DNA of 51,004 nucleotides from Lachnospiraceae bacterium. Its GTDB lineage: Bacteria; Bacillota; Clostridia; Lachnospirales; Lachnospiraceae. Both the position numbers and the translations under genes were made by a program. The DNA is taken from assembly GCA_017387565.1 (NCBI GenBank), contig JAFOEY010000017.1, positions 1 through 51,004 of the forward strand, in the 5' to 3' direction. Below, in pieces: positions 15,053 through 33,350 of this stretch (positions within the stretch are counted from its first letter, which is position 1; each line of letters begins with the position of its first letter). Below the pieces are notes generated by a model. The model was not told the DNA's origin. It searched no databases and worked only from the letters and a program-made list of their open reading frames with translations.

Positions 15053-17284
15053 ATGATCCGTAAAATACATAAGTATTTAGCAGCATTTTTATTAATTCCC
15101 ATGGTTTCTGTTTCTGTATTTTCAGGTGGAATTTCTTTTGGAAGTATGCAGGTCCAGGCTGCTGAAATGCCGACTGAAGGTATTATGACAGATCCGGCAG
15201 AATATGAGAATGGCGCAGAGGAATTGACAGACGCTTTAGAATCTGAAACAGCGTTCGAAGTAAATAAATTAAACTATGTCTATCTGGATGCAAAGACTGT
15301 TTACACACCTTCTGCACAGACTGTGATGGTTTCCTATGGAGATGAACAGACACAGTTAGCAGAAGCTAAATTAACAGTGCAAAACTATCTGACAGGCAGT
15401 CAGACAGAATACAGCATGGCAGATACCTTTGAAAATACTGCCTTATTTTCGTTGGATTATACGGCATCAGATCGTGGAATTTATGAAATAACAGATTTAC
15501 ATATTGTTACAACTGAAGGCTATGCCGAGCAGATTCACCTGCGTGATACCGGTATGGAGCATATTTATTTTGGTGTGGATGAAGAATTTGAAGAGACTGA
15601 CGATGCAGACAAGGCATTGACGGCTGAGAGTTATCAGGAACTGACTGACGCTTATGCAACCATGCAGACGGAAAGTGAATCTGCCAATGGTTCCATTAAT
15701 TCCAATGCGCAAAGCAATTTGCAAAATGTAGATTTGTCGCAAATTGAATTTCAGATTGTTTCTCTTGGTTCAGACGGAAGTCAGATTTCAACTTCCGACA
15801 TCAATGATATTAAAAAAGCATTAGAAGCAGGAGAAACTACGGTAAATAAAAATGCCCGCCTGAGTACGGAAAGTGCGCTTTCGACAGAAGCAGAAGACTA
15901 TGTGGTTATGCTCGATCCCGGACATGATGCGACGCACTGTGGTGCCAATAAAAACGGTCTTCGTGAAGAAGTTCTTACCTTAAAAATAGCACAATATTGT
16001 AAGGCTGAATTAGAACAGTATAAGCATGTAAAAGTATATATGACAAGAGAAAGTGCTGCATGTCCTCTGCCGGGTTCAACATCGGTTGCAGATAATCTAA
16101 ACCGTGTTGCCACGGCTGCAAATGTAGGAGCAGACATTTATGTCAGCATTCATTTGAATTCTGCCGGCACGAGTACAGCTAAGGGGGCCGAAGTTTTTTA
16201 TCCGAACAGCAATTATAGACCGGGTATCGGATCAGCAGGAGCTAACCTCGCAACACAGATTCAAAGACAGCTAGTGGCTCTCGGACTGAATAACAGAGGT
16301 ATTTCCATTCGAAATTCCGGAGATGGTTCCCGTTATCCGGATGGTTCACTGGCAGATTACTATGCGGTTATCAAACATTCCAAGAATGCAGGTTTTCCGG
16401 GGGTTATCGTGGAGCATGCCTATGTTTCCAATGCATCTGATGCCGCGTTTTTGAAAAGTGAATCCAATCTGCAGGCACTTGGCATCGCCGATGCAACTGG
16501 AATTGCTTCTTATCTGGGGCTTTCAAAAGGACCGGATATAGATAGGGAAAAAGTTTTGGCGTTTGTAACACGGCTATATAATCTTGGTTTAAACAGAGCA
16601 CCTGAAGCAGGCGGACTTGATTATTGGACGGACATCATTTGTAGCGAAGAAATGTCCGGTGCAGAAGTGGCGCAGGGATTCTTTTTTAGTCAGGAGATGG
16701 AAAACAGAAATTTATCCGACCGTGAGTTTGTCGAAATTTTGTATAATGTCCTGATGGACAGAACCTCCGATTCAGCAGGTATATCATACTGGCTAAGCTA
16801 TATGAATTCCGGTATTGAGAGAGAAGCTATTTTTAAACAATTTGTAGAATCTCCGGAGTATTACAATATTTGTGAATCCTATGGTATTGAACGCGGTGTT
16901 GTGAAAGTCGCCGGCAGAAATAGAAATCCGGGACTTACTTTGTTTATGATGCGACTTTATACCAAAGCTATGGGACGTGAATATGACCGGGACGGACTGG
17001 ATTATTGGTGCAATGAAATTCTGGACGGCAATTATAAAATTCTGGAGGTTGCCGGAACTCAGTTTTTCAATTCGAAAGAATTTTTAAATAAAAAATTGAC
17101 AGATAAGCAATATGTACAGGTTTTATACCGGACATTCTTTGATCGGGAATATGATGACGAGGGGATGAATTACTGGCTTGCGCAAATGAAAAAGGGAATG
17201 ACGCGCAATCAGGTTTTAGAGCAGTTCAACAATTCAAAAGAATTTGAGCAAATTCGAGCCAATTATGGTATTATAGGTTTATAG
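15053..17284 (+). CDS. Secreted N-acetylmuramoyl-L-alanine amidase with DUF4214 tail
   Basis: This 743-residue protein begins at the ATG with AGGTGG upstream; an upstream in-frame GTG at 15014 has no ribosome binding site and would spoil the signal peptide. A signal peptide ends near residue 36 (VQAAEM). Residues 40-280 are an acidic region of unknown fold. Residues about 283-490 are a zinc Amidase_3 domain with LDPGHD, GLREEVL, VSIHLN and the final VEHAYVSN glutamate, so all expected ligands and the catalytic glutamate are present. Residues about 496-743 contain four 55-60 residue DUF4214 units (for example LYNLGLNRAPEAGGLDYW and LYRTFFDREYDDEGMNYW). It should cleave the bond between MurNAc and the stem peptide at the cell surface. 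Confidence 0.9.
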   Translation: MIRKIHKYLAAFLLIPMVSVSVFSGGISFGSMQVQAAEMPTEGIMTDPAEYENGAEELTDALESETAFEVNKLNYVYLDAKTVYTPSAQTVMVSYGDEQTQLAEAKLTVQNYLTGSQTEYSMADTFENTALFSLDYTASDRGIYEITDLHIVTTEGYAEQIHLRDTGMEHIYFGVDEEFEETDDADKALTAESYQELTDAYATMQTESESANGSINSNAQSNLQNVDLSQIEFQIVSLGSDGSQISTSDINDIKKALEAGETTVNKNARLSTESALSTEAEDYVVMLDPGHDATHCGANKNGLREEVLTLKIAQYCKAELEQYKHVKVYMTRESAACPLPGSTSVADNLNRVATAANVGADIYVSIHLNSAGTSTAKGAEVFYPNSNYRPGIGSAGANLATQIQRQLVALGLNNRGISIRNSGDGSRYPDGSLADYYAVIKHSKNAGFPGVIVEHAYVSNASDAAFLKSESNLQALGIADATGIASYLGLSKGPDIDREKVLAFVTRLYNLGLNRAPEAGGLDYWTDIICSEEMSGAEVAQGFFFSQEMENRNLSDREFVEILYNVLMDRTSDSAGISYWLSYMNSGIEREAIFKQFVESPEYYNICESYGIERGVVKVAGRNRNPGLTLFMMRLYTKAMGREYDRDGLDYWCNEILDGNYKILEVAGTQFFNSKEFLNKKLTDKQYVQVLYRTFFDREYDDEGMNYWLAQMKKGMTRNQVLEQFNNSKEFEQIRANYGIIGL

Positions 17285-17302
17285 TGTTCAAAAAATTTAA
17301 TA

Positions 17303-17347
17303 AGGCGACCGTTAATGCATCGTTTATTATGATGCTTACGGTCGCTT
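17303..17347 (+). terminator. Stem-loop between exoenzyme genes (terminator or processing site)
   Basis: GGCGACCGT (17304-17312) pairs with ACGGTCGCT (17338-17346), and an inner GCATC/GATGC stem continues it after a small internal loop. The T-tract is poor, so this may be a weak terminator, an attenuator or an mRNA-stabilising hairpin between the amidase and the next secreted protein. Confidence 0.45.
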
Positions 17348-17394
17348 AAAGTGATTATATATTCATAATTCTTTTTAGGGAGGGTTTTCAGAAA

Positions 17395-19446
17395 ATGAAA
17401 AAGAAAAAACTATGGAGCGGGCTGGCTATTTTGTTGGCAGCAAGTCTGGCTTTGTCAGGTACAAACTGTGTGCTGGCATCAGAAAAAATTACCAAAGATA
17501 CGGTTGAGACATGTAAAGAACAAACCGGCGGATATGTTACGACAATGCCGACGGGAGTACGGGCAGATGAGGATAAATCTTCTTATCAGGTCTTTTTGGA
17601 TTCTTTGTCTGAAGGTCCTACTGGATATGGTGTGGAAAGTGCTGATCAGGTTTCAGCCAATGCTATTATAACGGAACCGTTGTCGGATATTGATGTCGAA
17701 CATGATTTATCTGCTGCCTCTGTTTATAATTGTATGATTAGTATGAAGGCTTATTTTCCGGAGGGAATGTATTGGACGAATGAAAACTTTTATGCCTGGA
17801 ATGGCGGTGGAAGATATTATGGAGGTTACGGATGCGCGGGATTTACATTTTTGTTATCAGATGCCGCTTTCGGTAATCTTCCATCACGTTATATAGACAG
17901 TTTTGAGTGGGATAGCTTCCGCGTCGGAGATATTCTTCGTGTAAACAATGATTCTCATTCTGTAATCATTCTGGAAAAATATGATGATTATGTGATTGTT
18001 GCAGAGGGTAATTATAACAGTTCGATTCACTGGGGACGTAAAATGACAAAGGAGGAAGTCGCAGATGGTTTTACAAATTATGCGACACGTTATCCGATTG
18101 ATGGTTCCAATCCCAATGTGTTGCCTGCGATTAATCATTGGACCGGTCCGGGAGAAGCGGAAAGTAACCAGACATATCCCATAGACTTTGATGAGAGTAC
18201 TGCCAAAGATAGCAGTGCATTGATTTTTGAAGTGACAGATGTCAGAACAGGAGCAAAGGAGAGATTCAATTCTCAAAACGGAAGATGCAAGGTTTTGGTG
18301 TTTGGCGGTATCGGAAGCTGCGGAAATACCATGAACAATATGGCTCGTCTTTCTCAAATCGCTGAGGAAGATGGATTAGATCAGATTGAATTCTGGGCAT
18401 TTGATATAGATGATAATTCAGATGCAACTATTCGTGATATCAGTGCGCTCTTTGGGATTAATTCCAATATGAAGATTATCAATGGAACCACGGATTGGGG
18501 TGAATGGAGCAATCTGTACTATTACTTACGTCAGGAAGCAGGAAATAATGGATTGTTGAATAATGGTATCCTATATATGCCTCTGATTGCTTTTGTAGAC
18601 GGAGAGGGTATTGTGTGGGGAGAAACCGTTTCATCCCAGTCGAAAGCATCTTTAAAAGAAACCCTTTCTGATTGCGGTTTTTATGAGGCAAATCAGCATT
18701 ATACGAATGAAACAGCTGCCATCGCTGCTTTTGTGGATCGGTTATATACAAAAGTTTTACAGAGAACCTATGATACAAGCGGTCTGAATTACTGGGTGGA
18801 TGAATTGTACAGTGGTGCAGAAACGGGAGCTGAAGTTGCCGGAGGATTTTTCTTTAGCCCGGAATTGAAAGCAAAGAATCTTTCGGACGAAGAATTTGTG
18901 AAATTATTATATGAGGTTATGATGAACCGTGTTCCGGATCAGGAAGGATTGGACTACTGGATAGGTCTGATGAAGAATGGATACGGAAGAGCCGGTGTGT
19001 TCAATGATTTTGTGGAATCTGCAGAATTTCACGGTATTTGTGACAGTTATGGAATAAAGGCAGGAACGTATCCGGTAACCGGTGCGAGCCGTAATTCCGG
19101 ATTGTCTGCCTTTATGTCAAGATTGTATACCAAAGCTTTAGGAAGGGATTTCGACCGTGAAGGACTTGATTATTGGTGTGAAGAGATTTCACAGGGAAAT
19201 TACACTTTGATGCAGGTTTCTACCGAACAGTTTTTCCATTCTAAGGAGTTTCTTGCAAAGAACCTGGACGATGTGGAATACGTGAAAGTGTTATACCGTA
19301 CTTTCTTTGACCGTGAATATGACCAAGATGGTTTGAATTACTGGATTGCGCAGATGACCTATTTTGGAATGAGCAGAGATACCGTATTAAATGAATTTGC
19401 AAATTCCAAAGAATTTGCCATCATTCGTGCACAGTATGGTTTATAA
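17395..19446 (+). CDS. Secreted NlpC/P60-like plus thioredoxin-like protein with DUF4214 tail
   Basis: The 683-residue protein has a strong GGGAGGG site and a signal peptide ending near residue 28. Residues about 110-240 look like a papain-fold NlpC/P60 or CHAP-type domain: YGGYGCAGFTF puts a candidate catalytic cysteine near 147, and NDSHSVIIL a histidine near 188 with a following AEGNYN. Residues about 275-435 resemble a TlpA-type thioredoxin fold (KVLVFGGIGSCGNT and YMPLIAFVDGEG), but only one cysteine remains where CxxC is expected, so disulfide exchange of the usual kind is doubtful. Residues 441-683 are four DUF4214 units ending ANSKEFAIIRAQYGL. The two catalytic-like domains are my reading of motifs; the tail is certain. 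A weak CGTCG/CGACG hairpin lies downstream at 19463-19482. Confidence 0.72.
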   Translation: MKKKKLWSGLAILLAASLALSGTNCVLASEKITKDTVETCKEQTGGYVTTMPTGVRADEDKSSYQVFLDSLSEGPTGYGVESADQVSANAIITEPLSDIDVEHDLSAASVYNCMISMKAYFPEGMYWTNENFYAWNGGGRYYGGYGCAGFTFLLSDAAFGNLPSRYIDSFEWDSFRVGDILRVNNDSHSVIILEKYDDYVIVAEGNYNSSIHWGRKMTKEEVADGFTNYATRYPIDGSNPNVLPAINHWTGPGEAESNQTYPIDFDESTAKDSSALIFEVTDVRTGAKERFNSQNGRCKVLVFGGIGSCGNTMNNMARLSQIAEEDGLDQIEFWAFDIDDNSDATIRDISALFGINSNMKIINGTTDWGEWSNLYYYLRQEAGNNGLLNNGILYMPLIAFVDGEGIVWGETVSSQSKASLKETLSDCGFYEANQHYTNETAAIAAFVDRLYTKVLQRTYDTSGLNYWVDELYSGAETGAEVAGGFFFSPELKAKNLSDEEFVKLLYEVMMNRVPDQEGLDYWIGLMKNGYGRAGVFNDFVESAEFHGICDSYGIKAGTYPVTGASRNSGLSAFMSRLYTKALGRDFDREGLDYWCEEISQGNYTLMQVSTEQFFHSKEFLAKNLDDVEYVKVLYRTFFDREYDQDGLNYWIAQMTYFGMSRDTVLNEFANSKEFAIIRAQYGL

Positions 19447-19543
19447 TTTTGTGATGTAATTACGTCGTTTGTCATGGCGACGAGGGAAATTTCTTTAAAT
19501 AAAATTAAAAAAGAGATATAAAAACGAGAGGGGCAATTAACAA

Positions 19544-21739
19544 ATGAAAAAGAAACTGTTAACGTCACTGTTTTCAATGGCGCTTGCATTGACACTGGCA
19601 GTGACAGCAACCGATATTACGGTTTTTGCAGAGCCAACCGTGTCTTCCAATGAAACTTCGGAAACCTTCGAAGCGGAGGTTGGGGTTGAGGAAGATGAGA
19701 TTGAAGAGGAAGAAGTAAACTGGGAAGAGGAAAGCTACTTTTCAAAACAGGGACTATCCCCTGAAGAAGCAGCAGAACTGGAAGCAGAGTGCCGTGAAAA
19801 ATACGGCGAAGATGCATTACAGACCAGCTTGATTCCGGAAGACATTTCCTACTTAAAGGAAAGTGCATGGGATTCGACAACGATGGTCAGAGGTACGCAG
19901 GCAAGTGGAAACTATTTCCTTAACTTAATTCTAAATGATGTATGGAGTTATAATCCACCGTATGGAGTACCTTTTGAGTTTGAAGGTCAGATTTACTATT
20001 TCAATAATATGTCAAACTATGTTGGCTCAGTTAAAGCAGCCAACAAAGCAGGAATTCCTGTTAGCGTAGAATTACTGTTGAAATCAAGCGAAAGAGGTTA
20101 TCCCGGATTAGAATTATATGATCCTACTGCAATTGCAAATTATCAGGCAAAACCTAAAAACAATAATTACTGGGCTCCCAATGTGATAAATGAAAGTTCC
20201 AGATATTACAGAGCCGAGCTTGCATATTTAGCACAGCTATTTTCACAGGCAGACTGCCATATTGATAACTGGATTGTCGGAAACGAAGTAAATATGCCTA
20301 ATTCATGGTATTTTACAGGATCAAGTGATCCGCAGTACAATGCTAATTTATATGCGGCAGAATATCTGGCTGTTTACAATGCGGTACATCAATATACAGA
20401 CAAATCACGTGTAAGCTTCTGCTTTGATCACAGTTGGCAGCACAATGATGAAGGTAGAGGTATCGCGGTAAAAGATTATCTGAATCGTCTGGTTGCTGCA
20501 ATTAATGCAATACAGCCTAATGTTGATTGGACAATTTCATATCATATGTATCCCGCATATTTGCCGGAAGCTGCAGTATGGACATCAACACCTTTTGAAG
20601 GACTGTGCGGAAGAGATTTAAATCCAAGACACGAAGGTGCGGAATTTGTTGATGGCTATAATTTATTTGTTATGACGGATTATATTAAGCAGAATTATGG
20701 AACGAGTCATAAGATCATGCTTACCGAGCAGGGATTTGCAAGAACGATGGGAGATGAGGTTCAGGCAGCGAGTCTGGCATTATCCTATTATGCTGCAAAA
20801 TACGACCCGATGGTTGATGCATTTATTATTAATGTAGCGAATGAAGGTGGTAATCAGGATTTTTCATTGAGTAATCTTGCATTGGCGGTATGGAATCATC
20901 TGGATGATGCTCCGGAATATGTTGAATCTGTGACGTTACCGGTAATCGGAATTGGATCTTACGCAGAAATTATTCCTAATTATGGTGTAGAAACCAAAAA
21001 AGCTGACCGTACCAAGGTAAAAGCCTTTGTTTCCAGAATTTATGAACTTGCACTCGGAAGAGAACCCGAAGAAGAAGGACTTTTGTATTGGACGGACGAA
21101 CTTTGCAGTGGCCGTATGACAGGAGCAGAGGTTGCCGGAGGATTTTTCTTTAGTCCGGAAATGAAAAACAAGAATCTGACGGATGAAGAATTTATTGAAA
21201 TCTGCTATAAAGTTATGATGGATCGTACCTCTGACGAAGGAGGCATGAATTACTGGCTGGATTGCAGAAAGAATGCATTCGGATTAGAAGGAATCTTTAA
21301 CGAGTTCTGTCAGTCAAAGGAGTTCAATGGAATTTGCAATAATTATGGTATTTCAGCCGGAAGTTATAACGTAACCGGTTGTAGCAGAAATATGGGTATG
21401 TCAGCTTTCATGTCAAGACTCTATACCAAAGCATTGGGCCGTGCTTATGACCAGGAAGGTTTAGATTACTGGTGTGAAGAAATCCACAAAGGAAATTATA
21501 CATTAATGCAGGTTTCAACAGAACAGTTCTTCCATTCCAAGGAATTTTTATCAAAGAATTTGAATGATGAAGAATATGTCAAAGTATTATACCGTACGTT
21601 CTTTGATCGCGAATATGATAAAGAAGGTCTTGACTACTGGCTGGCACAACTAAAAGCCGGACAGAGCAGAGATGCCATTTTAAATGAGTTTGCAAATTCA
21701 AAAGAGTTTGCGCAGATTAAAGCACAATACGGATTGTAA
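19544..21739 (+). CDS. Secreted glycoside hydrolase-like (DUF5722-type) with DUF4214 tail
   Basis: This 731-residue protein has a GAGAGGGG site upstream, a signal peptide ending near residue 29 (VFAEP) and a strongly acidic linker at about 40-60. Residues about 100-470 look like a TIM-barrel of the DUF5722/GH-A kind. NWIVGNEVNMP offers the acid/base glutamate near residue 247, and IMLTEQGFA a nucleophile glutamate near 394; TISYHMYP and aromatic-rich loops are typical of a sugar cleft. Residues about 488-731 are four DUF4214 units ending ANSKEFAQIKAQYGL. It probably cleaves an extracellular polysaccharide; host, dietary or self polymer is open. A strong terminator directly follows. Confidence 0.75.
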   Translation: MKKKLLTSLFSMALALTLAVTATDITVFAEPTVSSNETSETFEAEVGVEEDEIEEEEVNWEEESYFSKQGLSPEEAAELEAECREKYGEDALQTSLIPEDISYLKESAWDSTTMVRGTQASGNYFLNLILNDVWSYNPPYGVPFEFEGQIYYFNNMSNYVGSVKAANKAGIPVSVELLLKSSERGYPGLELYDPTAIANYQAKPKNNNYWAPNVINESSRYYRAELAYLAQLFSQADCHIDNWIVGNEVNMPNSWYFTGSSDPQYNANLYAAEYLAVYNAVHQYTDKSRVSFCFDHSWQHNDEGRGIAVKDYLNRLVAAINAIQPNVDWTISYHMYPAYLPEAAVWTSTPFEGLCGRDLNPRHEGAEFVDGYNLFVMTDYIKQNYGTSHKIMLTEQGFARTMGDEVQAASLALSYYAAKYDPMVDAFIINVANEGGNQDFSLSNLALAVWNHLDDAPEYVESVTLPVIGIGSYAEIIPNYGVETKKADRTKVKAFVSRIYELALGREPEEEGLLYWTDELCSGRMTGAEVAGGFFFSPEMKNKNLTDEEFIEICYKVMMDRTSDEGGMNYWLDCRKNAFGLEGIFNEFCQSKEFNGICNNYGISAGSYNVTGCSRNMGMSAFMSRLYTKALGRAYDQEGLDYWCEEIHKGNYTLMQVSTEQFFHSKEFLSKNLNDEEYVKVLYRTFFDREYDKEGLDYWLAQLKAGQSRDAILNEFANSKEFAQIKAQYGL

Positions 21740-21751
21740 AATAAATCTATC

Positions 21752-21788
21752 AAAATAGCGGAACAGCATTTGCTGTTTCGCTATTTTT
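21752..21788 (+). terminator. Strong rho-independent terminator
   Basis: AAAATAGCG (21752-21760) pairs with CGCTATTTT (21779-21787), and AACAGCA continues the stem, giving about 16 bp with a very short loop. TTTTT runs through the end of the stem. It separates the first exoenzyme group from the next glycan genes, which have their own promoter about 60 bp further on. Confidence 0.88.
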
Positions 21789-21849
21789 GCTAGTGCAAAA
21801 AAGTGATGTTTTGCTCCACGAAATGGTATTTTTTTCTGTGCTTGTAAGT

Positions 21850-21878
21850 TTGCATCAAAGCAGAAAAAATGATACAAT
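21850..21878 (+). promoter_or_regulatory. Sigma-A type promoter for the 21940 gene set
   Basis: TTGCAT (21850-21855) and TACAAT (21873-21878) are separated by exactly 17 bp, each one mismatch from consensus. Transcription should begin near 21885, leaving a leader of about 55 nt to the ATG at 21940. Its position right after a strong terminator supports it as the start of a new transcription unit. Confidence 0.7.
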
Positions 21879-21939: not shown

Positions 21940-23307
21940 ATGAAAGAACAATATAAGCATTTACTGAATTTCTGTGCAAATTTTATCATGCTACTTTTCC
22001 AGTGTATGCTATTTTCTTATATATGGTATAAGTATTATTCGGTTGGTCCGTATTTGTTTTACCGAAGAGGACATTGGGCAGCAATCGGATTCTATATGTT
22101 GATTGTGTTCTTTTTTACAAAGACATTTAACGGATATAAAATCGGGTATCTACGTATCATGGACATTTGCCTTTCGCATATTCTTGCTATCATTTTGGCA
22201 GGCTGTGCGGGATATTTGGAAATCTGTCTGATTATCAGGGATTACGTGGATCCAATGCCATTAGTGATAGTTAGTTTGATAGACATATTTTTTGCGGTTA
22301 TTTGGGTATATCTGGTCAGATACACATATACCCGTATTTATCCGCCACGTGACGTTATCTTTATTTATGGAGATTATCCACCGGAATCATTAATTTCTAA
22401 ATTTGGCAGTCGACAGGATAAATATCATATATGCGACACTGTTTCATATAAAGAGGGCATGGAAAAAATTGAAGGCATGATTGACAAATATCAGGCGGTT
22501 ATGCTGTGCGATTTGCCGGCGTATGACCGTAATCTGATTTTAAAATACTGCTATCGCAATAATGTAAGAGCATATGTGACCCCAAAGATATCGGATATTA
22601 TTATGGACGGCGCAGATAATATTTTTCTGTTTGATACGCCTCTTCTTTTATGTAGAAATCGTGGACTTTCGATTGAGCAGAGATTTATAAAACGATGCAT
22701 GGATATTTTGATTTCTCTCATTGGAATTATTCTTGCCTCACCGTTTATGCTGATTATTGCCATTGCGATTAAATTGTATGATCATGGTCCTGTATTTTAT
22801 AAACAGGAGAGATTAACAAGGGATGGAAAAGTCTTTGAAATATATAAGTTTCGTAGTATGAGTACAGATTCGGAAACAAAGGGTGCAAGACTTGCCATGA
22901 AAAATGATTCTCGTGTAACTCCGGTTGGGAAAATTATACGCAACATTCATTTCGATGAACTTCCTCAGTTATTTAACATTTTGAAGGGAGAAATGTCTGT
23001 AGTTGGGCCTCGTCCCGAGAGGCAGGTTATTATGAATCAGTACAAAAAAGAGTTGCCGGAATTTGACTTCAGATTGAAAGTAAAAGCCGGTCTTACTGGG
23101 TATGCTCAGGTTTTCGGGAAATATAATACGACACCTTATGATAAGTTGAAATTCGATATGCAGTATATTGAAAACTATTCTTTTTGGCTGGATATCAAAA
23201 TAATGATTTTGACATTCAAAATTTTGTTCCAAAAAGAAAATACGGAAGGTGTTGATACAACGCAAACAACTGCATTAAAATCAAACGGAGACAATAAAAA
23301 AGAATGA
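21940..23307 (+). CDS. Polyprenyl-phosphate sugar-1-phosphate transferase, second copy
   Basis: The 455-residue protein is the second initiating sugar transferase of the window. Four or five N-terminal membrane spans (residues 1-130) and a soluble middle region precede the catalytic domain (about 250-440). That domain shows CMDILISLIGIILASPFML, HGPVFYKQERLT, YKFRSMSTDSETKG, NIHFDELPQLFNILKG, MSVVGPRPERQ and KVKAGLTGYAQVFGKYNT. The motif details differ clearly from the minus-strand copy at 1123-2559, so the two probably use different UDP-sugars or serve different polymers. The start has GGAGAAAAGGAA upstream. It overlaps the following GT2 gene by four bases (ATGA), a sign of translational coupling. 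Confidence 0.88.
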   Translation: MKEQYKHLLNFCANFIMLLFQCMLFSYIWYKYYSVGPYLFYRRGHWAAIGFYMLIVFFFTKTFNGYKIGYLRIMDICLSHILAIILAGCAGYLEICLIIRDYVDPMPLVIVSLIDIFFAVIWVYLVRYTYTRIYPPRDVIFIYGDYPPESLISKFGSRQDKYHICDTVSYKEGMEKIEGMIDKYQAVMLCDLPAYDRNLILKYCYRNNVRAYVTPKISDIIMDGADNIFLFDTPLLLCRNRGLSIEQRFIKRCMDILISLIGIILASPFMLIIAIAIKLYDHGPVFYKQERLTRDGKVFEIYKFRSMSTDSETKGARLAMKNDSRVTPVGKIIRNIHFDELPQLFNILKGEMSVVGPRPERQVIMNQYKKELPEFDFRLKVKAGLTGYAQVFGKYNTTPYDKLKFDMQYIENYSFWLDIKIMILTFKILFQKENTEGVDTTQTTALKSNGDNKKE

Positions 23308-24071: not shown

Positions 24072-24075
24072 AATC

Positions 24076-25197
24076 ATGATTTTGATGGTGGATGCTCGAA
24101 CAATGGGAAGTCAGCCAAGCGGAATAGGTATGTACCTTTATAATTTTCTAAAAGAAATCGTAAAAGCACCTGAGATTCGATTGGTTTTGGTTTCTGATGT
24201 TGCCACTAGCTCGGAAATATTGGACATGAAAGAGCGTGGCGTTGAAATACTTCTATATGGAAAAAAGGTTTTTCGAAGTGGAGGGGTGTTTGCCTATTTT
24301 AATTATGTCAGAAAACAGGCAAAAAAATATCAGCCGGATTTATTTTGGGAACCCAATATACTCATTCCGCTCCCAATGCATGGATATCATGGGAAAATCG
24401 TGCTTACCATACATGATATTTTCCCTATTACTGCAGCCGAAAATTACGGAATTATCTATCGGATTTACTTCCGGTTTTTATTAAATAAATCAATTAAACA
24501 GGCTGATTTAATTCTTTATGATTCTGATTTTTCGAAAAAAGAAACAGAAAAATATTCAAAACCTGCCCGAAAGAAAAAGAATTTCTTAACTTATGTCATT
24601 ATCAATAAAGAACAGAAATCAGAATTGAATCAATCCAACTTTGATAACGACTATTTCCTGTATGTTGGATATCTTGGAAAGCGAAAAGGGACAGATATAT
24701 TAATCAAGGCATATGAAGCCTACGTTCAAATGGGAGGCTGCCGAAAGCTATATCTGGCCGGTGGCGTAAATGATCAGAGTGTTATTGATTTGCTTGAAGA
24801 GACCAATGCCAAATTGCAAGGCGCAAATAAAGCAACCATCGAATATTTGGGATATGTTTCAAAAGAAAGAAAAGCGGAATTGATTGAAAATTGTGCTTGT
24901 TTCTTGTTTCCGTCACGAGCGGAAGGGTTTGGGATGCCGATTATTGAGGTGATGGAGTACTATCGTCCGGTTATTGCAAGTGATTTGGAAATATTCAAGG
25001 AGCTGATCGGAGATGCGATCGGTTATTATCAGCATAGCGATGATATTGCGCTTGATGTTGATAATTTAGCCAAGGCAATGTATCAATTTGTCGGTGGACA
25101 GCAAATTGATTTGAATGTTTATGATGAGGTGCTGGAGCGTTATCGTGCCGAGAAACTTGGCCCGCCTATGATACAATGTCTGCTGGCTTCTGTATAA
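24076..25197 (+). CDS. GT4 family glycosyltransferase
   Basis: The 373-residue protein has the two-domain GT-B layout. The N-terminal half carries SQPSGIGMYLYNFLKE and LTIHDIFPIT. The C-terminal nucleotide-sugar half shows YFLYVGYLGKRKGTDILIKA, IEYLGYVSKERKAELIENC and FLFPSRAEGFGMPIIEVM, the E-x7-E type motif of GT4 enzymes. It is soluble or peripheral. The ribosome binding site (AAAGG at 24058-24062) is somewhat distant, and coupling to the upstream GT2 stop at 24071 is likely. Its stop codon lies within the first unit of a small tandem repeat (25195-25265). Confidence 0.87.
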   Translation: MILMVDARTMGSQPSGIGMYLYNFLKEIVKAPEIRLVLVSDVATSSEILDMKERGVEILLYGKKVFRSGGVFAYFNYVRKQAKKYQPDLFWEPNILIPLPMHGYHGKIVLTIHDIFPITAAENYGIIYRIYFRFLLNKSIKQADLILYDSDFSKKETEKYSKPARKKKNFLTYVIINKEQKSELNQSNFDNDYFLYVGYLGKRKGTDILIKAYEAYVQMGGCRKLYLAGGVNDQSVIDLLEETNAKLQGANKATIEYLGYVSKERKAELIENCACFLFPSRAEGFGMPIIEVMEYYRPVIASDLEIFKELIGDAIGYYQHSDDIALDVDNLAKAMYQFVGGQQIDLNVYDEVLERYRAEKLGPPMIQCLLASV

Positions 25198-25265
25198 AAG
25201 CAATATCGTAAAAAGCAATGCTATAAAAAGCGATATATAAAAGCAATGCTGTAGAAAGTAATTTA
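25195..25265 (+). repeat. Five imperfect tandem 14-15 bp repeats
   Basis: Units beginning TAAAAGCAAT recur at 25195, 25209, 25224, 25238 and, more degenerate, 25252. They alternate between a type ending ATATCG/ATATA and a type ending GCTA/GCTG, so units 1-2 and 3-4 look like a 28-29 bp duplication. They fill the gap between two glycosyltransferase genes; the first unit supplies the stop codon of the upstream gene. They are too short and lack spacers, so not a CRISPR. Confidence 0.7.
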
Positions 25266-25277
25266 TTTGGAGTAAAA

Positions 25278-26540
25278 ATGATTATCAAGTTAGCAATAAA
25301 AGTAAAACCTTTTTTATTGGAACTGCTTCCATATCAGTTTTGGAAAGCAATCAAAGATTATCTGGTTACCCATAAAGAGAATAAATTAAAATGTGCCGGA
25401 AGAAAAGAATTCACCCTCGGAGTTTATGAGAAGGGCATAAATTTAATCGGTGGAATCAATGTTCAGACCGGTTTGGGAGAAAGCTGCAGGATTTTGGCAA
25501 GAATATTGAAGCATTCTTCATTTCCTTTTACTGTTTGTGAGTACTGTGCGGATGCGCAGGTGGGAAGAAATGATCACGAATTTGATGATATGATTTCCAA
25601 TGAGAAAAAGTATGAAATCAATCTTTTGGACCTCAATCCCTATGAGCTTAGACTTTATTATGTGGAAAGCGGAAACGAACTGCTTGATTACAGATATAAC
25701 ATAGGTTTCTGGTCATATGAATTGGAAAAAATACCGGATGGATGGCGTGAGGCAATTGATCTGGTGGATGAAATATGGACACCGTCAGAATACACGAGCA
25801 ATTTGTTCCGGAAATTAACAGATAAGCCTGTGTGTTCAATGCCATATTTCATTACGGCACCGGTTGATGATACCATGGATCGATCCTATTTCGAACTGCC
25901 GGAAGATAAATTTCTGTATTTGATTATGTATGATACAAATAGCACGATGGCAAGAAAAAATCCGCAGGGTGCAATTGAAGCATACAAAAAGGCATTTCCC
26001 GTTGAACGGGAGCAAGTCGGACTGATTGTAAAAATTAACCATATCACGCCGGAAGACGAAGGTGTGCTGAAAAAAGAGCTTAGTGGTTATCAAAACGTTT
26101 ATTTTATCGGGAAAACTTTGACAAAAATCGAAGTGAACAGTTTGGTAAAATGCGCCGATGTTTTTGTGTCACTGCACAGAGCCGAAGGCTTTGGACTGGT
26201 TATGGCAGAAGCTATGTTAAATGGGACAGCCTGTGTTGCAACCAATTATTCAGCCAATACAGAGTTTATGAATTCGGAATGTGCGTGCATGGTTGACTAT
26301 GAATTGGTTGATATGACCGGGGATACCGGACAGTATCCCAAGGGCAGTAAGTGGGCTGAAGCGTCCATGGAAGAAGCAGCAGACTATATGATGAAACTAT
26401 ATCAAAACCAAGATTTTTATCAGGAGATAGTTTCAAATGCCAAAAAGAAAATGGTGGATGAACTGAGCATAGAAAAGGCGACAGAAAGAATCGAAAGTCG
26501 TATTGAGACGATTTATGCAACAGCACTGGAGGAAATGTGA
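25278..26540 (+). CDS. GT4-like glycosyltransferase
   Basis: This 420-residue GT-B enzyme has a glycine-rich N-terminal nucleotide loop region, GINVQTGLGESCRILARIL, then WTPSEYTSNLF at the end of the acceptor domain. The donor domain has YNVYFIGKTL-like order (QNVYFIGKT), VKCADVFVSLHRAEGFGL and VMAEAMLNGTACVATNYSANTEF. The layout resembles the glycosyltransferase modules found in multi-domain mannosyltransferases of ABC-dependent O-antigens, although donor identity is not shown. GGAG is well placed before the ATG. Its stop overlaps the start of the secreted glucosaminidase (TGATG), directly coupling glycan synthesis genes to an exoenzyme. Confidence 0.84.
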   Translation: MIIKLAIKVKPFLLELLPYQFWKAIKDYLVTHKENKLKCAGRKEFTLGVYEKGINLIGGINVQTGLGESCRILARILKHSSFPFTVCEYCADAQVGRNDHEFDDMISNEKKYEINLLDLNPYELRLYYVESGNELLDYRYNIGFWSYELEKIPDGWREAIDLVDEIWTPSEYTSNLFRKLTDKPVCSMPYFITAPVDDTMDRSYFELPEDKFLYLIMYDTNSTMARKNPQGAIEAYKKAFPVEREQVGLIVKINHITPEDEGVLKKELSGYQNVYFIGKTLTKIEVNSLVKCADVFVSLHRAEGFGLVMAEAMLNGTACVATNYSANTEFMNSECACMVDYELVDMTGDTGQYPKGSKWAEASMEEAADYMMKLYQNQDFYQEIVSNAKKKMVDELSIEKATERIESRIETIYATALEEM

Positions 26541-28711
26541 TGAAAAAATTACGAATGATGAGTATATTGCTTGCAGCAATTATGATATTCGAGAGTGGCG
26601 TATTAAGCGTTAGCGCTACAACGTTAAGCGACAATTCTGTGATTGATACAGAAGGAATGGCGATAAGTGAAGAAAAATCCGTATCAGATAGTTCGTTTGC
26701 TGATGCGCAAAATGCATTGACCGATATTTTGTTAAAAAAACCGATTTATGCTTTGATTTACAATTCCGATTACTACGATCTATACGAGAAGCCCGGCAGA
26801 CAGGGCAATATCACCGGCTCTGCTCCGAGTGGGACTCAGGTTTTTATAAAAGATGTGGCACAGAGCCAGGATGGAGATATTTATTATCTTGTAGAATGCG
26901 GAATTGCCGGGAAAACAGTAACCGGCTATGTTCAAAATGGCAATCTTGCATCCGAAGATGTTGATTTTTGTTCATGGAAAGAGGAATACTTAACTCCGCT
27001 TATTGGTGCGAGATTACAAACCGAGGCGTCCAATATAGAATCCATTTATGCAAATTTCCCAAGCGGTTATCACGAAAAACTTGTTGCATTGGCAGCAGCG
27101 CATCCGAACTGGACATTTGTGGCACATAACACCGGTGTTGACTGGTATGAGGCGGTAACACAGGAGCGTGTGGGAAACCGAAGTCTGGTCTATAAAACCG
27201 TTATTGATTCCTGGAAATCCAAGGATCCCGGAGATTATGACTATTCTACCGGAACATATATTCCTAAAAGTGGTCCGAACTGGTTTAGGGCATCACAGGA
27301 AGCAGTTGATTTCTGTATGAATCCTATCAACTATCTGGATGAAACACATATTTTTGCTTTTGAACAACTTACTTATAATGCAAATGCACATAATGCAGAC
27401 GGAGTAAATGCCATCATTCGTAATTCTTGGATGTATAATACTGCTTTGGAGGATGGTTCTAGCGGATATTATTGTGATGTGTTTGTATTGGTCGGTTTCC
27501 TTACGGGAGTCAGTCCCTATCATCTGGCAAGCCGCGTGCTTCAGGAGCAGGGGACAAGAGGGGACGCAGCGCTGATTTCAGGATACGGCGGCGTCTATAA
27601 TTATTTCAATGTTCAGGCGAGTGGTGCAACATCAGCAGAGATTTTGGCAAATGGAACTGCCTATGCACAGAGTCAGGGATGGACAAGTCGCTATGCTTCC
27701 ATATATGGTGGCGCCGCAAGACTTGGCGAAAACTATATTACAAAGGGGCAGGACACCTTATATCTGCAGAAATTTGATGTTGATAATTCCTATTACGGTA
27801 TGTATACACACCAATATATGCAGAATATTCAAGCGCCTACCACAGAGAGCGCATCCGTTTATCGAGCTTATTCCAATGCAGGTGCTCTGAATAATAATTT
27901 TGTTTTTAAAATTCCGGTTTATAATAACATGCCCGGAAATGGCGATTATCAATCACCTAATACAGAATATCCCACATCGGAAGCTTTTATCAGACAGGTC
28001 TATTCGGTTGTTTTGGAACGTGAGCCGGATGAAGAAGGCCTGCGCTATTGGATGAATCAGTTAAGGATTGGTGAAACGGCAGCGGATATTGTTGGAGAAT
28101 TCTTTAATAGTCAGGAAATGAAAAATAAAAATCTGAATGATAAAGAGTTTTTAACATATGCTTATCGTGCCATCCTGGGAAGAGAGGCTGATGATGCCGG
28201 ATTGCAGTATTGGTTATCTGAGTTGCAACAGGGGGCAACCAGAAGGTGGTTGTTGAGCGAATTTGTGGTGTCAACAGAGTTTACTCAGCTTTGCGGCAAT
28301 TACGGTATCGTTCGAGGAAACATTACAGGATTAGAACATGCAGACAAATCTGCGGGTGCAACAAAGTTTGTTACGTTCATTTACCGAAATGTGTTAAAAC
28401 GGGATCCAGATTTAGAGGGCCTGAATTACTGGACAGGAGAGATGATCGAAAATGGCATGACGGCATCACGTCTGGTAGAACAATTTGCAAAAAGTCCGGA
28501 ATTTGCAAGTGCAAATCTCAGTAACGAAGAATATGTTGAGAGGCTATATGAGACGGTTCTTGGCAGAAAATCAGATGAAAACGGAAAAAAATACTGGGTT
28601 TCTCTCATGAACAATGGGTATAGCAGACATGACATTTTGCGGGAATTTACACACTCTGCGGAGTTTGCAGCAATTTGTGCATCTTATGGGGTATCAGTAG
28701 GAGAAATTTAA
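26540..28711 (+). CDS. Secreted endo-beta-N-acetylglucosaminidase-like protein with DUF4214 tail
   Basis: I start this 723-residue protein at the ATG at 26540, seven bases after GGAGG (26528-26532) and overlapping the previous stop by one base; a GTG at 26537 is possible. A signal peptide ends near residue 27. Residues about 65-140 look like a bacterial SH3 domain, and about 175-465 a glucosaminidase domain of the LytD/GH73-like type. The latter shows VSPYHLASRVLQEQGT with a candidate catalytic glutamate near 335, GYGGVYNYFNV, IYGGAARLGENYI and a closing FKIPVYNNMP. Residues about 475-723 are four DUF4214 units. This tail is the most divergent of the six and ends in CASYGVSVGEI instead of AQYGL. 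It should cut glycan strands of peptidoglycan. Confidence 0.85.
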   Translation: MKKLRMMSILLAAIMIFESGVLSVSATTLSDNSVIDTEGMAISEEKSVSDSSFADAQNALTDILLKKPIYALIYNSDYYDLYEKPGRQGNITGSAPSGTQVFIKDVAQSQDGDIYYLVECGIAGKTVTGYVQNGNLASEDVDFCSWKEEYLTPLIGARLQTEASNIESIYANFPSGYHEKLVALAAAHPNWTFVAHNTGVDWYEAVTQERVGNRSLVYKTVIDSWKSKDPGDYDYSTGTYIPKSGPNWFRASQEAVDFCMNPINYLDETHIFAFEQLTYNANAHNADGVNAIIRNSWMYNTALEDGSSGYYCDVFVLVGFLTGVSPYHLASRVLQEQGTRGDAALISGYGGVYNYFNVQASGATSAEILANGTAYAQSQGWTSRYASIYGGAARLGENYITKGQDTLYLQKFDVDNSYYGMYTHQYMQNIQAPTTESASVYRAYSNAGALNNNFVFKIPVYNNMPGNGDYQSPNTEYPTSEAFIRQVYSVVLEREPDEEGLRYWMNQLRIGETAADIVGEFFNSQEMKNKNLNDKEFLTYAYRAILGREADDAGLQYWLSELQQGATRRWLLSEFVVSTEFTQLCGNYGIVRGNITGLEHADKSAGATKFVTFIYRNVLKRDPDLEGLNYWTGEMIENGMTASRLVEQFAKSPEFASANLSNEEYVERLYETVLGRKSDENGKKYWVSLMNNGYSRHDILREFTHSAEFAAICASYGVSVGEI

Positions 28712-30817
28712 ATGAGGAAAAGAAATTTTCAATGCAATAGGATGATTGCTATAGCCACAGCGTTCTTTCTGACTTTTTCAACGAGCGCGGTATATGCAGA
28801 ACCTTTTGTTGCAACGGATTCGGATAACGAAAGTGTTTCCGCCAATGAATATAATGAGACAGAAACAAATAATTCTTTTGAGAAAATATTAAATGAGACA
28901 GAATCCTATGTGGATGAAAGCCGGGAATATTCCAAAGAACGCATTGTCGTGGTAATGGAAAGGGATGGCATCATAACGCTGCAGAGCGAATGCGAGGATG
29001 ATTCGCCATCGAATGCAGATGACGGGCTGTCTCAGGTTTGTGATGAGATTCTGGATTCTATGGAGGGAAGCGGAGATTTTCAGTTTTCGACCGTAGAATT
29101 ATCAGAGGATATGACGGTTTCAGAAGCGGTTGATTATTACGGAAACCTTCCGGGAGTGGCATTTGCCCAGCCGGATTATCTGTTGGAAGTAGAAAATACA
29201 ACAAATGATCCTTCTGTGAGTGCACAATGGTATTGGGAAAAACTTAACATGGATATCGTATGTGAATATACGAAAGATATGCCTTTTTCAAAGGTTAAAG
29301 TTGCAATCGTAGATACGGGACTGGATGTGAATCATCCGGATCTTCAGGATGCGGTAAACAGAGATTTGTGTGTCAGCTCCGTAAACTCTGATTTTGATAA
29401 AATCACAACGGATTTAGGAAAAACAGGTCATGGTACACATATTGCGGGAATCATAGGTGCTACTGCCAATAATGGAATCGGCATTGCCGGACTTGCGGCG
29501 GGCCGCGTGGAGATTATGGGCATCCGGTGTCAGACAGAAACAAGTATTTATTCATCCTATGCGGCGCGAGGAGTGGAATATGCCGTAGACAATGGTGCGA
29601 GACTGATCAATATGAGCCTTGGAACCACCAAGGATGATAATCTTTTAAAAACAGCAATGGAGTATGCATACAGCCGGGATGTTTTGGTTATCTGCTCGGC
29701 CGGAAATAGCGGCAGCAACGGTGTGCATTATCCAAGCAGATATGATGAGACGATTGGCGTCATTGCAGTTGGTCAGGACAATCATAAGACTTCCAGCTCC
29801 AATTATGGGAAGGATAATTTTATCAGTGCACCCGGAAGCAGTATATACAGTACACTTCCCGATGGGAAATATGGATATCTGAGTGGAACATCCATGGCAT
29901 CGGGAATGGTAACTGCTGTCGCTGCATACGTTTTATCTCTGAATCCGACCTTGTCCGTCGAAGAATTAAAGACGGTTTTAGCTCAGTCGGCAACGGATAT
30001 TTACACTTCCGGATTTGATGAATATTCCGGATGGGGAGTTGTCAATCCGATGGAGGCAGTTACGCAAGTGACACAAAATTCCAATACCGTAAGTGGCTTT
30101 GTCAATCGCCTGTATCGGCTGGCAATGGAGAGACAAGCTGATTTGGAGGGACTGTCCTATTGGGTTAATACTTTAAAGAGTGGAGAAAAAACCGGTGCAA
30201 AAGTTGCGGAAGGGTTTATTGAAAGTCCTGAGTTTGCAAACCGCAACTTATCCGATGAACGGTATGTTACCGTTCTCTATGAGATTTTTATGGGAAGAGA
30301 ACCGGATGCGGATGGTTACCGATACTGGCTGGAATTGTTGTCAAACGGTGTATCAAGGACCTTTGTTGCCAATCAATTCTGCACTTCGGCTGAATTTGTG
30401 CAAATATGCAAGAATTGTGGGATTACTGCGGGTTCTATGGATTTAAAAGAAAATCGGGACCGCAATGTGGGTCTGACCGGTTTTGTTGCAAGACAATATA
30501 CAAAGGCATTGGGACGGGCATTTGATGTTGAAGGTATCAATTACTGGACCGGAGAGATTCTTGACGGAAGATATAGTATAATAGATGTATGTACAGACGG
30601 TTTTTTCCATTCCAAAGAATTTCAAAACAAGAATTTATCGGATGAAGAATATATAAAAGTATTATATCGGACATTCTTTGACCGCGAATACGATGAAGAG
30701 GGGTTGCAATACTGGGTATCGCAGCTACATACAGGAAACATGACAAGAAATCAGATATTAAATGATTTTGCATTATCAAAGGAATTTCAAATTGTCAGAG
30801 CGCAATATGGATTTTAA
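28712..30817 (+). CDS. Secreted subtilisin-like (S8) serine protease with DUF4214 tail
   Basis: This 701-residue protease starts directly after the previous stop, with AGGAG at 28699-28703 inside the upstream gene. It has a signal peptide ending near residue 29 (VYAEP), a prodomain-like region to about 160 that finishes with FAQPDYLLEV, and an intact catalytic domain. The triad is Asp near 201 (AIVDTGLD), His near 240 (GHGTHIAGI) and Ser near 393 (GTSMASG), with the oxyanion Asn near 332 (CSAGNSG). Residues about 459-701 are four DUF4214 units ending ALSKEFQIVRAQYGF. It may mature or shed the other tailed proteins, or degrade external protein. Confidence 0.92.
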   Translation: MRKRNFQCNRMIAIATAFFLTFSTSAVYAEPFVATDSDNESVSANEYNETETNNSFEKILNETESYVDESREYSKERIVVVMERDGIITLQSECEDDSPSNADDGLSQVCDEILDSMEGSGDFQFSTVELSEDMTVSEAVDYYGNLPGVAFAQPDYLLEVENTTNDPSVSAQWYWEKLNMDIVCEYTKDMPFSKVKVAIVDTGLDVNHPDLQDAVNRDLCVSSVNSDFDKITTDLGKTGHGTHIAGIIGATANNGIGIAGLAAGRVEIMGIRCQTETSIYSSYAARGVEYAVDNGARLINMSLGTTKDDNLLKTAMEYAYSRDVLVICSAGNSGSNGVHYPSRYDETIGVIAVGQDNHKTSSSNYGKDNFISAPGSSIYSTLPDGKYGYLSGTSMASGMVTAVAAYVLSLNPTLSVEELKTVLAQSATDIYTSGFDEYSGWGVVNPMEAVTQVTQNSNTVSGFVNRLYRLAMERQADLEGLSYWVNTLKSGEKTGAKVAEGFIESPEFANRNLSDERYVTVLYEIFMGREPDADGYRYWLELLSNGVSRTFVANQFCTSAEFVQICKNCGITAGSMDLKENRDRNVGLTGFVARQYTKALGRAFDVEGINYWTGEILDGRYSIIDVCTDGFFHSKEFQNKNLSDEEYIKVLYRTFFDREYDEEGLQYWVSQLHTGNMTRNQILNDFALSKEFQIVRAQYGF

Positions 30818-30840
30818 TAACGTAATGGAGGGAATGAAGG

Positions 30841-32859
30841 ATGAAAAAGAAGAAAGTGATGCCGTTATTGACATTGGCAATGGTTGCCATAATGGCAGCA
30901 GAAGGGAGTCTGACGGAGATTTCGGCAGCTCCCCTTACTGAACTGGTAAGTGCACAGGATGCAGAATTGGGCGAGCCTGTTGCAGACGAGACAAATGTAG
31001 AGACAAGTGATACTGAAAATGATGCGACAGATATCGCAAATCTATCGGTTTCCGATGATTCTATCGGAGAGATTATGCAGCCGGAAGCTACCTATCTTGA
31101 CAGTGGTTCAGCATCGGTTTCAAAAATGTCAAAATCAGGGATTGCAAATCAACTTAATGCCATCTATAGTGCGAAATTTGGGCTTTACAGTATCGTGCCC
31201 AGCGTTACCGTTCCTTACAGTAGTGGAGCAGCATCGGCAGAACACTATAAATATACACTTGCAAGCGTTAACCTGATGCGACAAATTGCCGGATTGCCGG
31301 GTGTAACATTTAAGGATGAATACAATACCTATGCACAGTATGGAGCGGTGGTAATGGCGGCAAGAGAAGAATTTTCCCACACACCGTCTTGCCCGGCAGG
31401 GATGGATTCAGAGTTTTACCTGAAAGGACTGACTGGTACAAGCCGTGGGAATATCAGTATGGGAACTTCTTCTTACTATACCATGCCGAAATTTACCACA
31501 GGATATATGCAGGACAATCGAGGTAATAACGTATTGACTGTTGGCCATCGGAGATGGATATTGAATCCAAGTATGGGACAGACAGGTTTTGGTTATGCTG
31601 AATCAACGAGTGGAAAAAGTTACTCGGTTATGTATGCTTTTGACAAATCCAAAACAGGCGTGGATTATGATTTTATTGCATGGCCCTCGTCCGGAAATTT
31701 CCCCAATACGATTATGAGTGCTAAGGAGCCATGGTCAGTTACTCTGAATCCGGAGAAATTTAAGACGGATTCGGCATATTTAAATACAAACAATGTTTCT
31801 GTCACCATCACTGCACCAAATGGTGTGACCAAGACTTTTCGTGCTGCAGATAAAAAGGACAGCCTGATCGATGATCAGAGTAAGTCTTATTTTACGATTG
31901 ATACAGCAGGTTATGGTGTAAACAACTGTATCATTTTCCGTCCCGGTTCGGATGTCTTTGGTGCTAATGCACTTTCCGGTACCTATACCGTTGTTATCTC
32001 CGGTCTGAAGGAAAAACTGGGAACACCCGCATCTTTGTGCTATACGATTGATTTCTTTAATCCGCAGGATTATATTACGGATACCAATCCTGATTTGGGA
32101 AGTGGTGATAAGCAGGTAGATGAGGCAGCCTTAGAGGCGTTTATCAACAGACTGTATCAGAAGTGCTTAGACCGAGACAATGATACAACGGGGATGCTTT
32201 ATTGGAAGGATCAGTTGAAGAGCAAACAGCTATCCGGTGCACAAGTTGCACAAAACTTCTTCTTCAGTGAAGAAATGAAAAATAAAAAATTGACTGATGA
32301 GCAGTTTATTGACACTTTATACGTTGTCATGATGGATAGAAAGGCAGATGTTTCCGGTAAAGAATACTGGCTTGATTTGATGAAAAACGGAGTAGGCAAG
32401 ACAGGAGTTTTTGCAGAATTTGCCGCGTCCCCAGAATTTAGTGCAATCTGTAAAAATTATGGAATTACACGCGGTGATGCAGTTGTTTCCGAAGGGCGTG
32501 ATAAGAATATTGGAGCAACGCAGTTTATTGCAAGACTATACACCAAGGCACTTGGAAGAACCTATGATGTAGACGGATTAAACTATTGGTGTGATTGCCT
32601 AATTCGAAAAGAATATTCGGCTGCAGAAATTGCTTCAACACAGTTCTTCCATTCAAAAGAGTTTACGATGAAGGGCTTGGGCGACAGTGACTATGTAAAA
32701 GTACTTTATCGTACATTTTTGGGACGTGAATACGATGAAGAAGGTCTAAACTACTGGCTGTTCCAGATGAGAGTATATGGTATGAGCAGAGATACTGTTT
32801 TAAATGAATTTGCTAATTCAAAAGAATTCAAACAAATTATGGCTCAGTATGGTTTATAA
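30841..32859 (+). CDS. Secreted CAP-domain protein with DUF4214 tail
   Basis: This 672-residue protein has GGAGGG at 30827-30832 and a signal peptide ending near residue 30. A CAP (SCP/PR1-like) domain follows at about residues 135-270: ASVNLMRQIAGLPGV, the histidine-bearing EEFSHTPSCP and VGHRRWILNPSM near residue 235. A beta-rich region (about 290-410) comes next, then four DUF4214 units (about 424-672) ending ANSKEFKQIMAQYGL. CAP proteins of bacteria are extracellular; some bind or cut wall or lipid ligands, but no single activity can be assigned. It closes the second exoenzyme group and is followed 41 bp later by glycan genes. Confidence 0.87.
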   Translation: MKKKKVMPLLTLAMVAIMAAEGSLTEISAAPLTELVSAQDAELGEPVADETNVETSDTENDATDIANLSVSDDSIGEIMQPEATYLDSGSASVSKMSKSGIANQLNAIYSAKFGLYSIVPSVTVPYSSGAASAEHYKYTLASVNLMRQIAGLPGVTFKDEYNTYAQYGAVVMAAREEFSHTPSCPAGMDSEFYLKGLTGTSRGNISMGTSSYYTMPKFTTGYMQDNRGNNVLTVGHRRWILNPSMGQTGFGYAESTSGKSYSVMYAFDKSKTGVDYDFIAWPSSGNFPNTIMSAKEPWSVTLNPEKFKTDSAYLNTNNVSVTITAPNGVTKTFRAADKKDSLIDDQSKSYFTIDTAGYGVNNCIIFRPGSDVFGANALSGTYTVVISGLKEKLGTPASLCYTIDFFNPQDYITDTNPDLGSGDKQVDEAALEAFINRLYQKCLDRDNDTTGMLYWKDQLKSKQLSGAQVAQNFFFSEEMKNKKLTDEQFIDTLYVVMMDRKADVSGKEYWLDLMKNGVGKTGVFAEFAASPEFSAICKNYGITRGDAVVSEGRDKNIGATQFIARLYTKALGRTYDVDGLNYWCDCLIRKEYSAAEIASTQFFHSKEFTMKGLGDSDYVKVLYRTFLGREYDEEGLNYWLFQMRVYGMSRDTVLNEFANSKEFKQIMAQYGL

Positions 32860-33326: not shown

Positions 33327-33350
33327 AGTTATATCATATGGAAGAGGCTT

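Follow-up and report, generated by a model that had tools for sequence, protein, structure and literature searches.

DUF4214 tails as predicted surface-retention modules of secreted enzymes encoded in a Lachnospiraceae glycan locus

A glycan locus with six tailed proteins

The window analysed here is a 51 kb contig (JAFOEY010000017.1; C17 of genome G000) from a Lachnospiraceae genome of 2.9 Mb on 69 contigs. Between 3844 and 48814 it holds a long run of envelope-glycan genes, all on the plus strand (Table 1), and among them lie the genes for six secreted proteins that end in the same DUF4214 tail, which we predict to be a surface-retention module. The tailed genes form two trios, 15014-21739 and 26537-32859, with a sugar transferase gene and three glycosyltransferase (GT) genes between them (21940-26540); the 26537 gene starts within the last 4 bases of the preceding GT gene. 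The first trio is preceded by O-antigen ligase-like and Stealth genes; after the second come further GT genes and then an ATP-binding cassette (ABC) exporter carrying a Wzt C-terminal domain, here named type A. The interleaving of tailed and glycan genes described in an earlier note on this DNA is therefore confirmed.

Four Pfam DUF4214 (PF13946) matches above the gathering score were found in each of the six proteins, with whole-protein E values of 2e-49 to 2e-58, and the C-terminal tails of about 240 residues align end to end with 35-68% identity. An all-against-all BLAST comparison of the six heads revealed no homology between them (best E value 0.019). Read by eye, all six N-termini resemble Sec signal peptides, and the sortase signal LPXTG is absent from all six C-termini; sortases are present in all nine genomes of the genus. 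The claim of one DUF4214 tail common to six secreted proteins whose heads are unrelated was thus borne out. The start of the amidase gene had been placed at 15053, an internal ATG that gives a cleaner signal peptide, and is corrected here to the GTG at 15014.

The heads were assigned by Pfam as Amidase_3, DUF5722, Peptidase_S8 and CAP, and that of the glucosaminidase matches autolysins in the PDB (E value 2e-6), in agreement with the labels given earlier. The label NlpC-Trx for the 17395-19446 protein, which derives from motifs seen by eye, was not confirmed; neither half of the head matches Pfam at E values up to 1, and the whole head has no PDB match at E values up to 0.01. We use NlpTrx below as a name for this head. 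In DUF5722, the motifs GNEVN and TExGF are invariant across eight sequences, and we take them to be the acid pair of clan GH-A. A model of moderate confidence (predicted local distance difference test score, pLDDT, 66.8) resembles, among the matches listed, GH53 galactanase and other glycoside-hydrolase barrels, and the DUF5722 protein is probably a glycoside hydrolase.

Table 1. Features of the glycan-gene run in the window
Feature	Position	Strand	Basis
First ABC exporter pair	3844-5443	+	Pfam ABC2_membrane (3844-4626), ABC_tran (4715-5443)
GT2 and CDP-glycerol glycerophosphotransferase fusion	7157-9835	+	Pfam Glycos_transf_2, Glyphos_transf
Stealth protein	10096-11109	+	Pfam
WecG/TagA-type GT	11190-11942	+	Pfam
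Second Stealth protein	12148-13239	+	Pfam
O-antigen ligase-like membrane protein (Wzy_C), directly 5' of the tailed amidase	13283-14992	+	Pfam
Secreted N-acetylmuramoyl-L-alanine amidase; tail residues 513-753 (16550-17272)	15014-17284	+	Pfam Amidase_3, four DUF4214
Secreted protein with cysteine-hydrolase-like and thioredoxin-like motifs (read by eye only); tail 18718-19443	17395-19446	+	Four DUF4214
Secreted DUF5722 protein, probably a glycoside hydrolase; tail 21014-21736	19544-21739	+	Pfam; moderate-confidence model
Glycan genes between the tailed trios: Bac_transf (21940), GT2 (23304), GT4 (24076), GT4 (25278)	21940-26540	+	Pfam
Secreted glucosaminidase; tail 27980-28693	26537-28711	+	Four DUF4214; PDB autolysin match
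Secreted subtilase; tail 30086-30814	28712-30817	+	Pfam Peptidase_S8, four DUF4214
Secreted CAP-domain protein; tail 32128-32856	30841-32859	+	Pfam CAP, four DUF4214
Small coiled-coil-like protein (32901-33326; Pfam below cut-off) and two GT4 (33351, 34358)	32901-35674	+	Pfam
Second ABC exporter (type A): Wzm-like permease (35802-36581), Wzt with Wzt_C (36533-37819)	35802-37819	+	Pfam ABC2_membrane, ABC_tran, Wzt_C
GT8, small protein, GT4-DUF6492, two membrane-like proteins (by eye) with no Pfam match	within 37822-48814	+	Pfam
CTP transferase, HMGL-like, HAD-like (below cut-off)	within 37822-48814	+	Pfam

Layout of the locus in the genus

A search of 41 genomes for the tail was positive in seven of the nine genomes of the genus and in one of the 32 others. 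Of these seven genomes of the genus, six (G000, G001, G002, G004, G005 and G008) share a common layout, in which a tailed amidase and DUF5722 protein are followed by the sugar transferase and GTs, then by a tailed glucosaminidase, subtilase and CAP or NlpTrx-like protein, and then by the type-A Wzm/Wzt pair. The five genomes other than G000 also have counterparts of the 32901-35674 genes in their loci. The O-antigen ligase-like gene precedes the amidase in five of the six, among them G001, G004 and G008 and, with two open reading frames (ORFs) intervening, G002, while in G005 it is on a different contig. In G002 and G005, the GTs between the equivalent tailed genes are quite different. The layout was not seen in the seventh genome, G007 (180 contigs), where most tailed genes have other heads. 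Neither tails nor a type-A exporter were found in G003 and G006. Within the genus, both features occur together in six genomes, the exporter alone in none, tails alone in one and neither in two (p 0.083).

G001, G004 and G008 have another Wzm/Wzt locus, type B, which encodes one tailed protein. At the second conserved Wzm/Wzt loci (L121, L128 and L134), the head of the sole tailed protein resembles part of the NlpTrx head (E value about 1e-17).

Elsewhere in the G000 genome, tails are also found. It has 56 DUF4214 matches in 14 proteins, six of them in the window. A tailed DUF5722 paralogue adjoins a second Wzm/Wzt pair (L031), and a tailed GDSL esterase precedes nucleotide-sugar genes (L035).

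Association with the type-A exporter in other genera

The tail (E value cut-off 1e-20) and the type-A permease (cut-off 1e-70) were sought in 397 genomes of the family, with at most six tail candidates scored per genome, so that the tail counts are lower bounds. Tails were found in 15 genomes, the permease in 44 and both in 13. The exporter is thus present in 13 of the 15 tail-positive genomes vs 31 of the 382 tail-negative ones (Fisher p 5.8e-12, kinship ignored), and with the genus itself excluded the figures are 11/13 vs 31/381 (p 3.7e-10). A rule that the exporter implies the tail was rejected, as 31 of the 44 type-A genomes are tail-less. A rapidly built tree of 48 permeases requires nine changes of the tail label, and well-supported branches force two of them.

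The two features are also linked. Outside the genus, 11 genomes carry both, and regions of approximately 10 kb either side of the permease were examined in each; for L168, L177 and L181, which are among the eight linked regions, the stretch retrieved had the tail rather than the permease at its centre. Short partial tails in G333 (39 residues) and G048 (51 residues) were left out, and a partial gene at a contig edge in G314 was counted. A tailed gene lies within approximately 10 kb of the permease in eight of the 11 (G077, G091, G092, G129, G133, G192, G312 and G314), where 1.7 would be expected if every first-look candidate is taken as a separate gene (P of eight or more, 1.8e-5). The unlinked cases are G239 and G328, whose contigs are 14 and 5 kb long, respectively, and G333, where the nearest accepted gene is approximately 17 kb away. 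As in the window, the tailed gene adjoins a sugar-transferase gene in G091, G312, G314 and G133. Ten of the 13 tailed proteins in the linked regions were scanned, and their heads include L,D-transpeptidase (YkuD), GH25 (twice), GH5 (twice), M6-like, papain, amidase, GHL10 and transglutaminase-like domains.

Glycan genes more broadly were examined in hand-picked sets of loci, mostly on long contigs. A general link between DUF4214 and glycan loci was rejected, since many of 80 loci lack a glycan gene by markers derived from the window (a set with no control). Among 20 tail-centred regions of other genera, a glycan marker was present in five, vs none of 20 control regions (p 0.047), and three of these five were also counted as type-A loci. 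The association with glycan loci that the earlier note had made the touchstone of its proposal therefore holds for the type-A exporter (layout in 6/7, 13/15 vs 31/382 genomes, linkage in 8/11) but not for glycan loci generally. A Geminicoccus genome encodes a DUF4214 protein (L084:8003-11023) close to Wzm/Wzt-, GT2- and GT4-like genes. In the tail-less, exporter-bearing G070, genes for two proteins with choline-binding repeats (L220:680-2206 and L220:2298-3857) lie beside the exporter locus; these are perhaps an alternative anchor in the same role.

Exchange of the tail for other modules

The same enzymes carry different localisation modules in different lineages. Tail-less G003 has a homologue of the window amidase (L139:6211-10350; E value 1e-123 to the head) in which seven GBS_Bsp-like repeats and a glucosaminidase domain take the place of the DUF4214 tail. 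It is found four ORFs downstream of a relative of Wzy_C, in the neighbourhood where the sister species carry the tailed amidase. In G006, GBS_Bsp repeats at a contig edge precede glycan genes. Relatives of the window glucosaminidase head are present in seven other genera (38-45% identity). The three of these seven that were scanned (G016, G023 and G010) all have C-terminal Cadherin-like and Dockerin_1 domains, while a relative in G129 carries a DUF4214 tail and, read by eye, at least those in G017 and G019 end without a dockerin. In our view, nothing else argues as strongly for the tail being a localisation module as these swaps on the amidase and glucosaminidase heads.

The swaps also bear on the idea that the tail retains nothing and instead aids secretion, folding or inhibition, its link with glycan genes being historical and due to expansion of a family in one locus. 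Local duplication could indeed have produced the tandem groups of tailed genes. However, the heads are unrelated, the tail occurs at either end of proteins (in a sialidase-like protein of G000 the DUF4214 module is near the N-terminus), it is replaced by other surface modules and it recurs in several genera. We consider this explanation highly improbable.

Evolution of the tails

In a tree of 60 tails, the amidase, NlpTrx, DUF5722, CAP and subtilase tails of G000 form one clade (98/94), which also takes in both tails from the other glycan neighbourhoods of that genome and one tail from G023. The amidase and DUF5722 tails of G002 and G005 form a clade (100/97), and those of G001, G004 and G008 another (91/85). 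These tails therefore group by lineage although their heads are related by function and place. Between the G000 and G001 amidases, identity is 75% for the heads and 52% for the tails.

Approximately unbiased (AU) tests on 37 locus tails, with hypotheses chosen after the first tree, rejected a single clade per head for the amidase (p 0.0012), DUF5722 (p 5e-51) and NlpTrx (p 3e-11, orthology being unsure because the gene position differs) and marginally for CAP (p 0.022). From these comparisons, some tails have been exchanged or homogenised within a lineage. Grouping by lineage could reflect a common lineage-specific receptor or, equally, neutral gene conversion.

Fold of the tail and comparison with known anchors

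The tail was modelled with high confidence (pLDDT 97) as two tandem helical domains of approximately 115 residues each, resembling phycobilisome linkers. The four DUF4214 units described earlier are thus present but make up only two structural domains. Among the matches listed, the modelled tail matches the phycobilisome-linker fold and profile (PF00427). All 91 aligned tails match DUF4214 and ten also match PBS_linker_poly; Dockerin_1 is not among the five families that these tails match, and none of the 91 matches a choline-binding model. SLH repeats, CW_binding_2 (CWB2, PF04122) and Choline_bind_3 were each found in none of the nine genomes of the genus (other choline-binding models were not searched genome-wide).

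The idea of a DUF4214 anchor is already in print. In segmented filamentous bacteria DUF4214 has been called a likely surface-anchoring domain (PMC12780176), and another paper cites the view that DUF4214 proteins are part of an S-layer-anchored enzyme (PMC11970703). A link between DUF4214 and glycan loci was not found in the one paper collection searched, nor in the excerpted account of segmented filamentous bacteria, whose proteins have the same Pfam domain (PMC12780176). The wall-binding-domain review PMC5817068 was not among the literature mentioning DUF4214.

The closest likeness is to CWB2 and polysaccharide II (PSII) of Clostridioides difficile, where tandem repeats are likewise carried by many functionally different surface proteins (PMC4973711, PMC5817068) and the locus proposed for the polymer lies beside the genes for cell-wall proteins (PMC4973711), whereas here enzyme genes are interleaved with polymer genes. 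CWB2 belongs to a different domain family, and its binding is demonstrated where that of the tail is predicted. SLH domains are also retained non-covalently on a wall polymer, the pyruvylated secondary cell wall polymer (PMC5817068, PMC6030368), in the way predicted for the tail. By analogy, the module would work like CWB2/PSII while lying outside the CWB2 and SLH families; we take the SLH fold to be different from that of the tail.

The phycobilisome linker domain serves phycobilisomes, whereas the DUF4214 tail sits on secreted enzymes with signal peptides. The N-terminal domain of RsaA, the S-layer anchor of Caulobacter, is all-helical and binds O-polysaccharide (PMC6978808). It aligns to the tail weakly, though seemingly in register. 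A plasmid search for relatives found none, and an alphaproteobacterial DUF4214 protein has no PDB match and hence provides no bridge to RsaA. A broader scheme, which we regard as doubtful, would make DUF4214, phycobilisome linkers and the RsaA anchor one helical superfamily, whose DUF4214 branch would hold enzymes on ABC-exported polysaccharides in Gram-positive walls, much as RsaA is held on O-antigen, with the enzymes of this locus held on its own polymer.

Interpretation

We propose that the tail is a non-covalent surface-retention module whose receptor in this bacterial family is most likely the type-A polymer, a prediction from sequence to which we assign a probability of about 0.5. Enzymes of many kinds would be given the tail which, after Sec export, would keep them in the cell envelope. 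The receptor would be the polymer exported by the type-A Wzm/Wzt pair of the locus, or a feature accompanying that polymer. The locus would then encode a surface glycan together with the wall hydrolases, glycoside hydrolase and proteases displayed on it.

What the sequences show is the common tail, the conserved layout, the co-occurrence and linkage with the exporter, the swaps on two heads, the lineage-wise evolution of some tails and the modelled fold. Retention by the tail, the receptor and joint expression of the locus are what we infer from them. The module swaps and the lineage-wise evolution of some tails favour a retention module, and retention of some kind is very probable, while for the type-A polymer as the receptor we see roughly even odds. 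We also count in favour of the proposal the unrelated heads, the retention of the layout despite the differing GTs in G002 and G005, and that SLH, CWB2 and Choline_bind_3 repeats were not found.

Several observations weigh against it. The p values for the exporter association ignore species phylogeny, so shared ancestry may explain part of it, and on the permease tree the tail label is more clustered than when shuffled (at most 1 in 500 shuffles is as low). Besides the 31 exporter-bearing genomes without tails, tails occur without the exporter in G023 and G317 (one hit each, that in G317 partial and with an in-frame stop) and in G007, where no type-A exporter was found in the assembly. Fifteen of the 20 tail-centred regions of other genera have no glycan marker, and six of the 14 tailed genes of G000 lie outside glycan neighbourhoods. 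These six encode two BspA-type leucine-rich repeat proteins, a VanY-type peptidase, the sialidase-like protein and two proteins with no assigned head; one (L037) adjoins a single GT2-like gene.

The many tailed genes outside glycan loci and the three genomes with tails and no exporter would suit a general envelope anchor for peptidoglycan or another common wall component, with glycan loci as envelope islands where hydrolases let the polymer through. That several heads are peptidoglycan hydrolases fits this too. However, GH5, papain, subtilase, CAP and M6-like domains are found among the heads at these loci as well, which makes the tail, and not wall hydrolysis, the common factor, and a general anchor does not account for the link to one exporter type. 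We consider a general anchor possible, though on the unlikely side.

The nature of the tail adds further points against the polymer as receptor. Acidic tails make up 36 of the 39 locus and related tails, and the relatives by fold, the phycobilisome linkers, bind proteins. The tail might accordingly be a protein-protein docking module, the enzymes assembling with each other or on an S-layer-like scaffold. This seems to us improbable, as no candidate scaffold was seen in the locus (no search was aimed at one), the exporter link would be left unexplained and a common fold does not establish function.

Also to be set against the type-A polymer proposal is part of the tail phylogeny. Outside G000, subtilase and NlpTrx tails group by head in the 60-tail tree; a single subtilase clade was not rejected by the AU test (p 0.175), and the glucosaminidase tails among the 37 locus tails form one clade. 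The G000 amidase head and the block upstream of it are closest to those of G001 and the tail is not, so tail type does not track the upstream Stealth/Wzy block. Finally, 19 terminator-like sites were found in the region vs 11.9 in shuffles (standard deviation 3.7), so a single transcript for the locus cannot be assumed; a promoter scan found 57 sites vs 55.7, which is the shuffle level.

The proposal assigns a testable role to a domain of unknown function, points to a candidate locus for its ligand, and offers a display system for a genus in which the three repeat families named above were not found in nine genomes. If it is correct, it would explain how wall hydrolases, proteases and glycosidases stay on the cell, and a light-harvesting linker fold would be in use as a surface anchor.

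Other features of the window

The small proteins encoded at 32901-33326 and 38910-39299 recur beside GTs and Wzm/Wzt in relatives; our guess is that they are chain-length rulers or GT partners. The genes for the CTP transferase, an HMGL-like aldolase and the HAD-like protein (below cut-off) are consecutive at 45901-48814, and this row may hint at a CMP-activated sugar acid in the polymer. Just past the glycan genes there is a DDE transposase gene (49236-50795).

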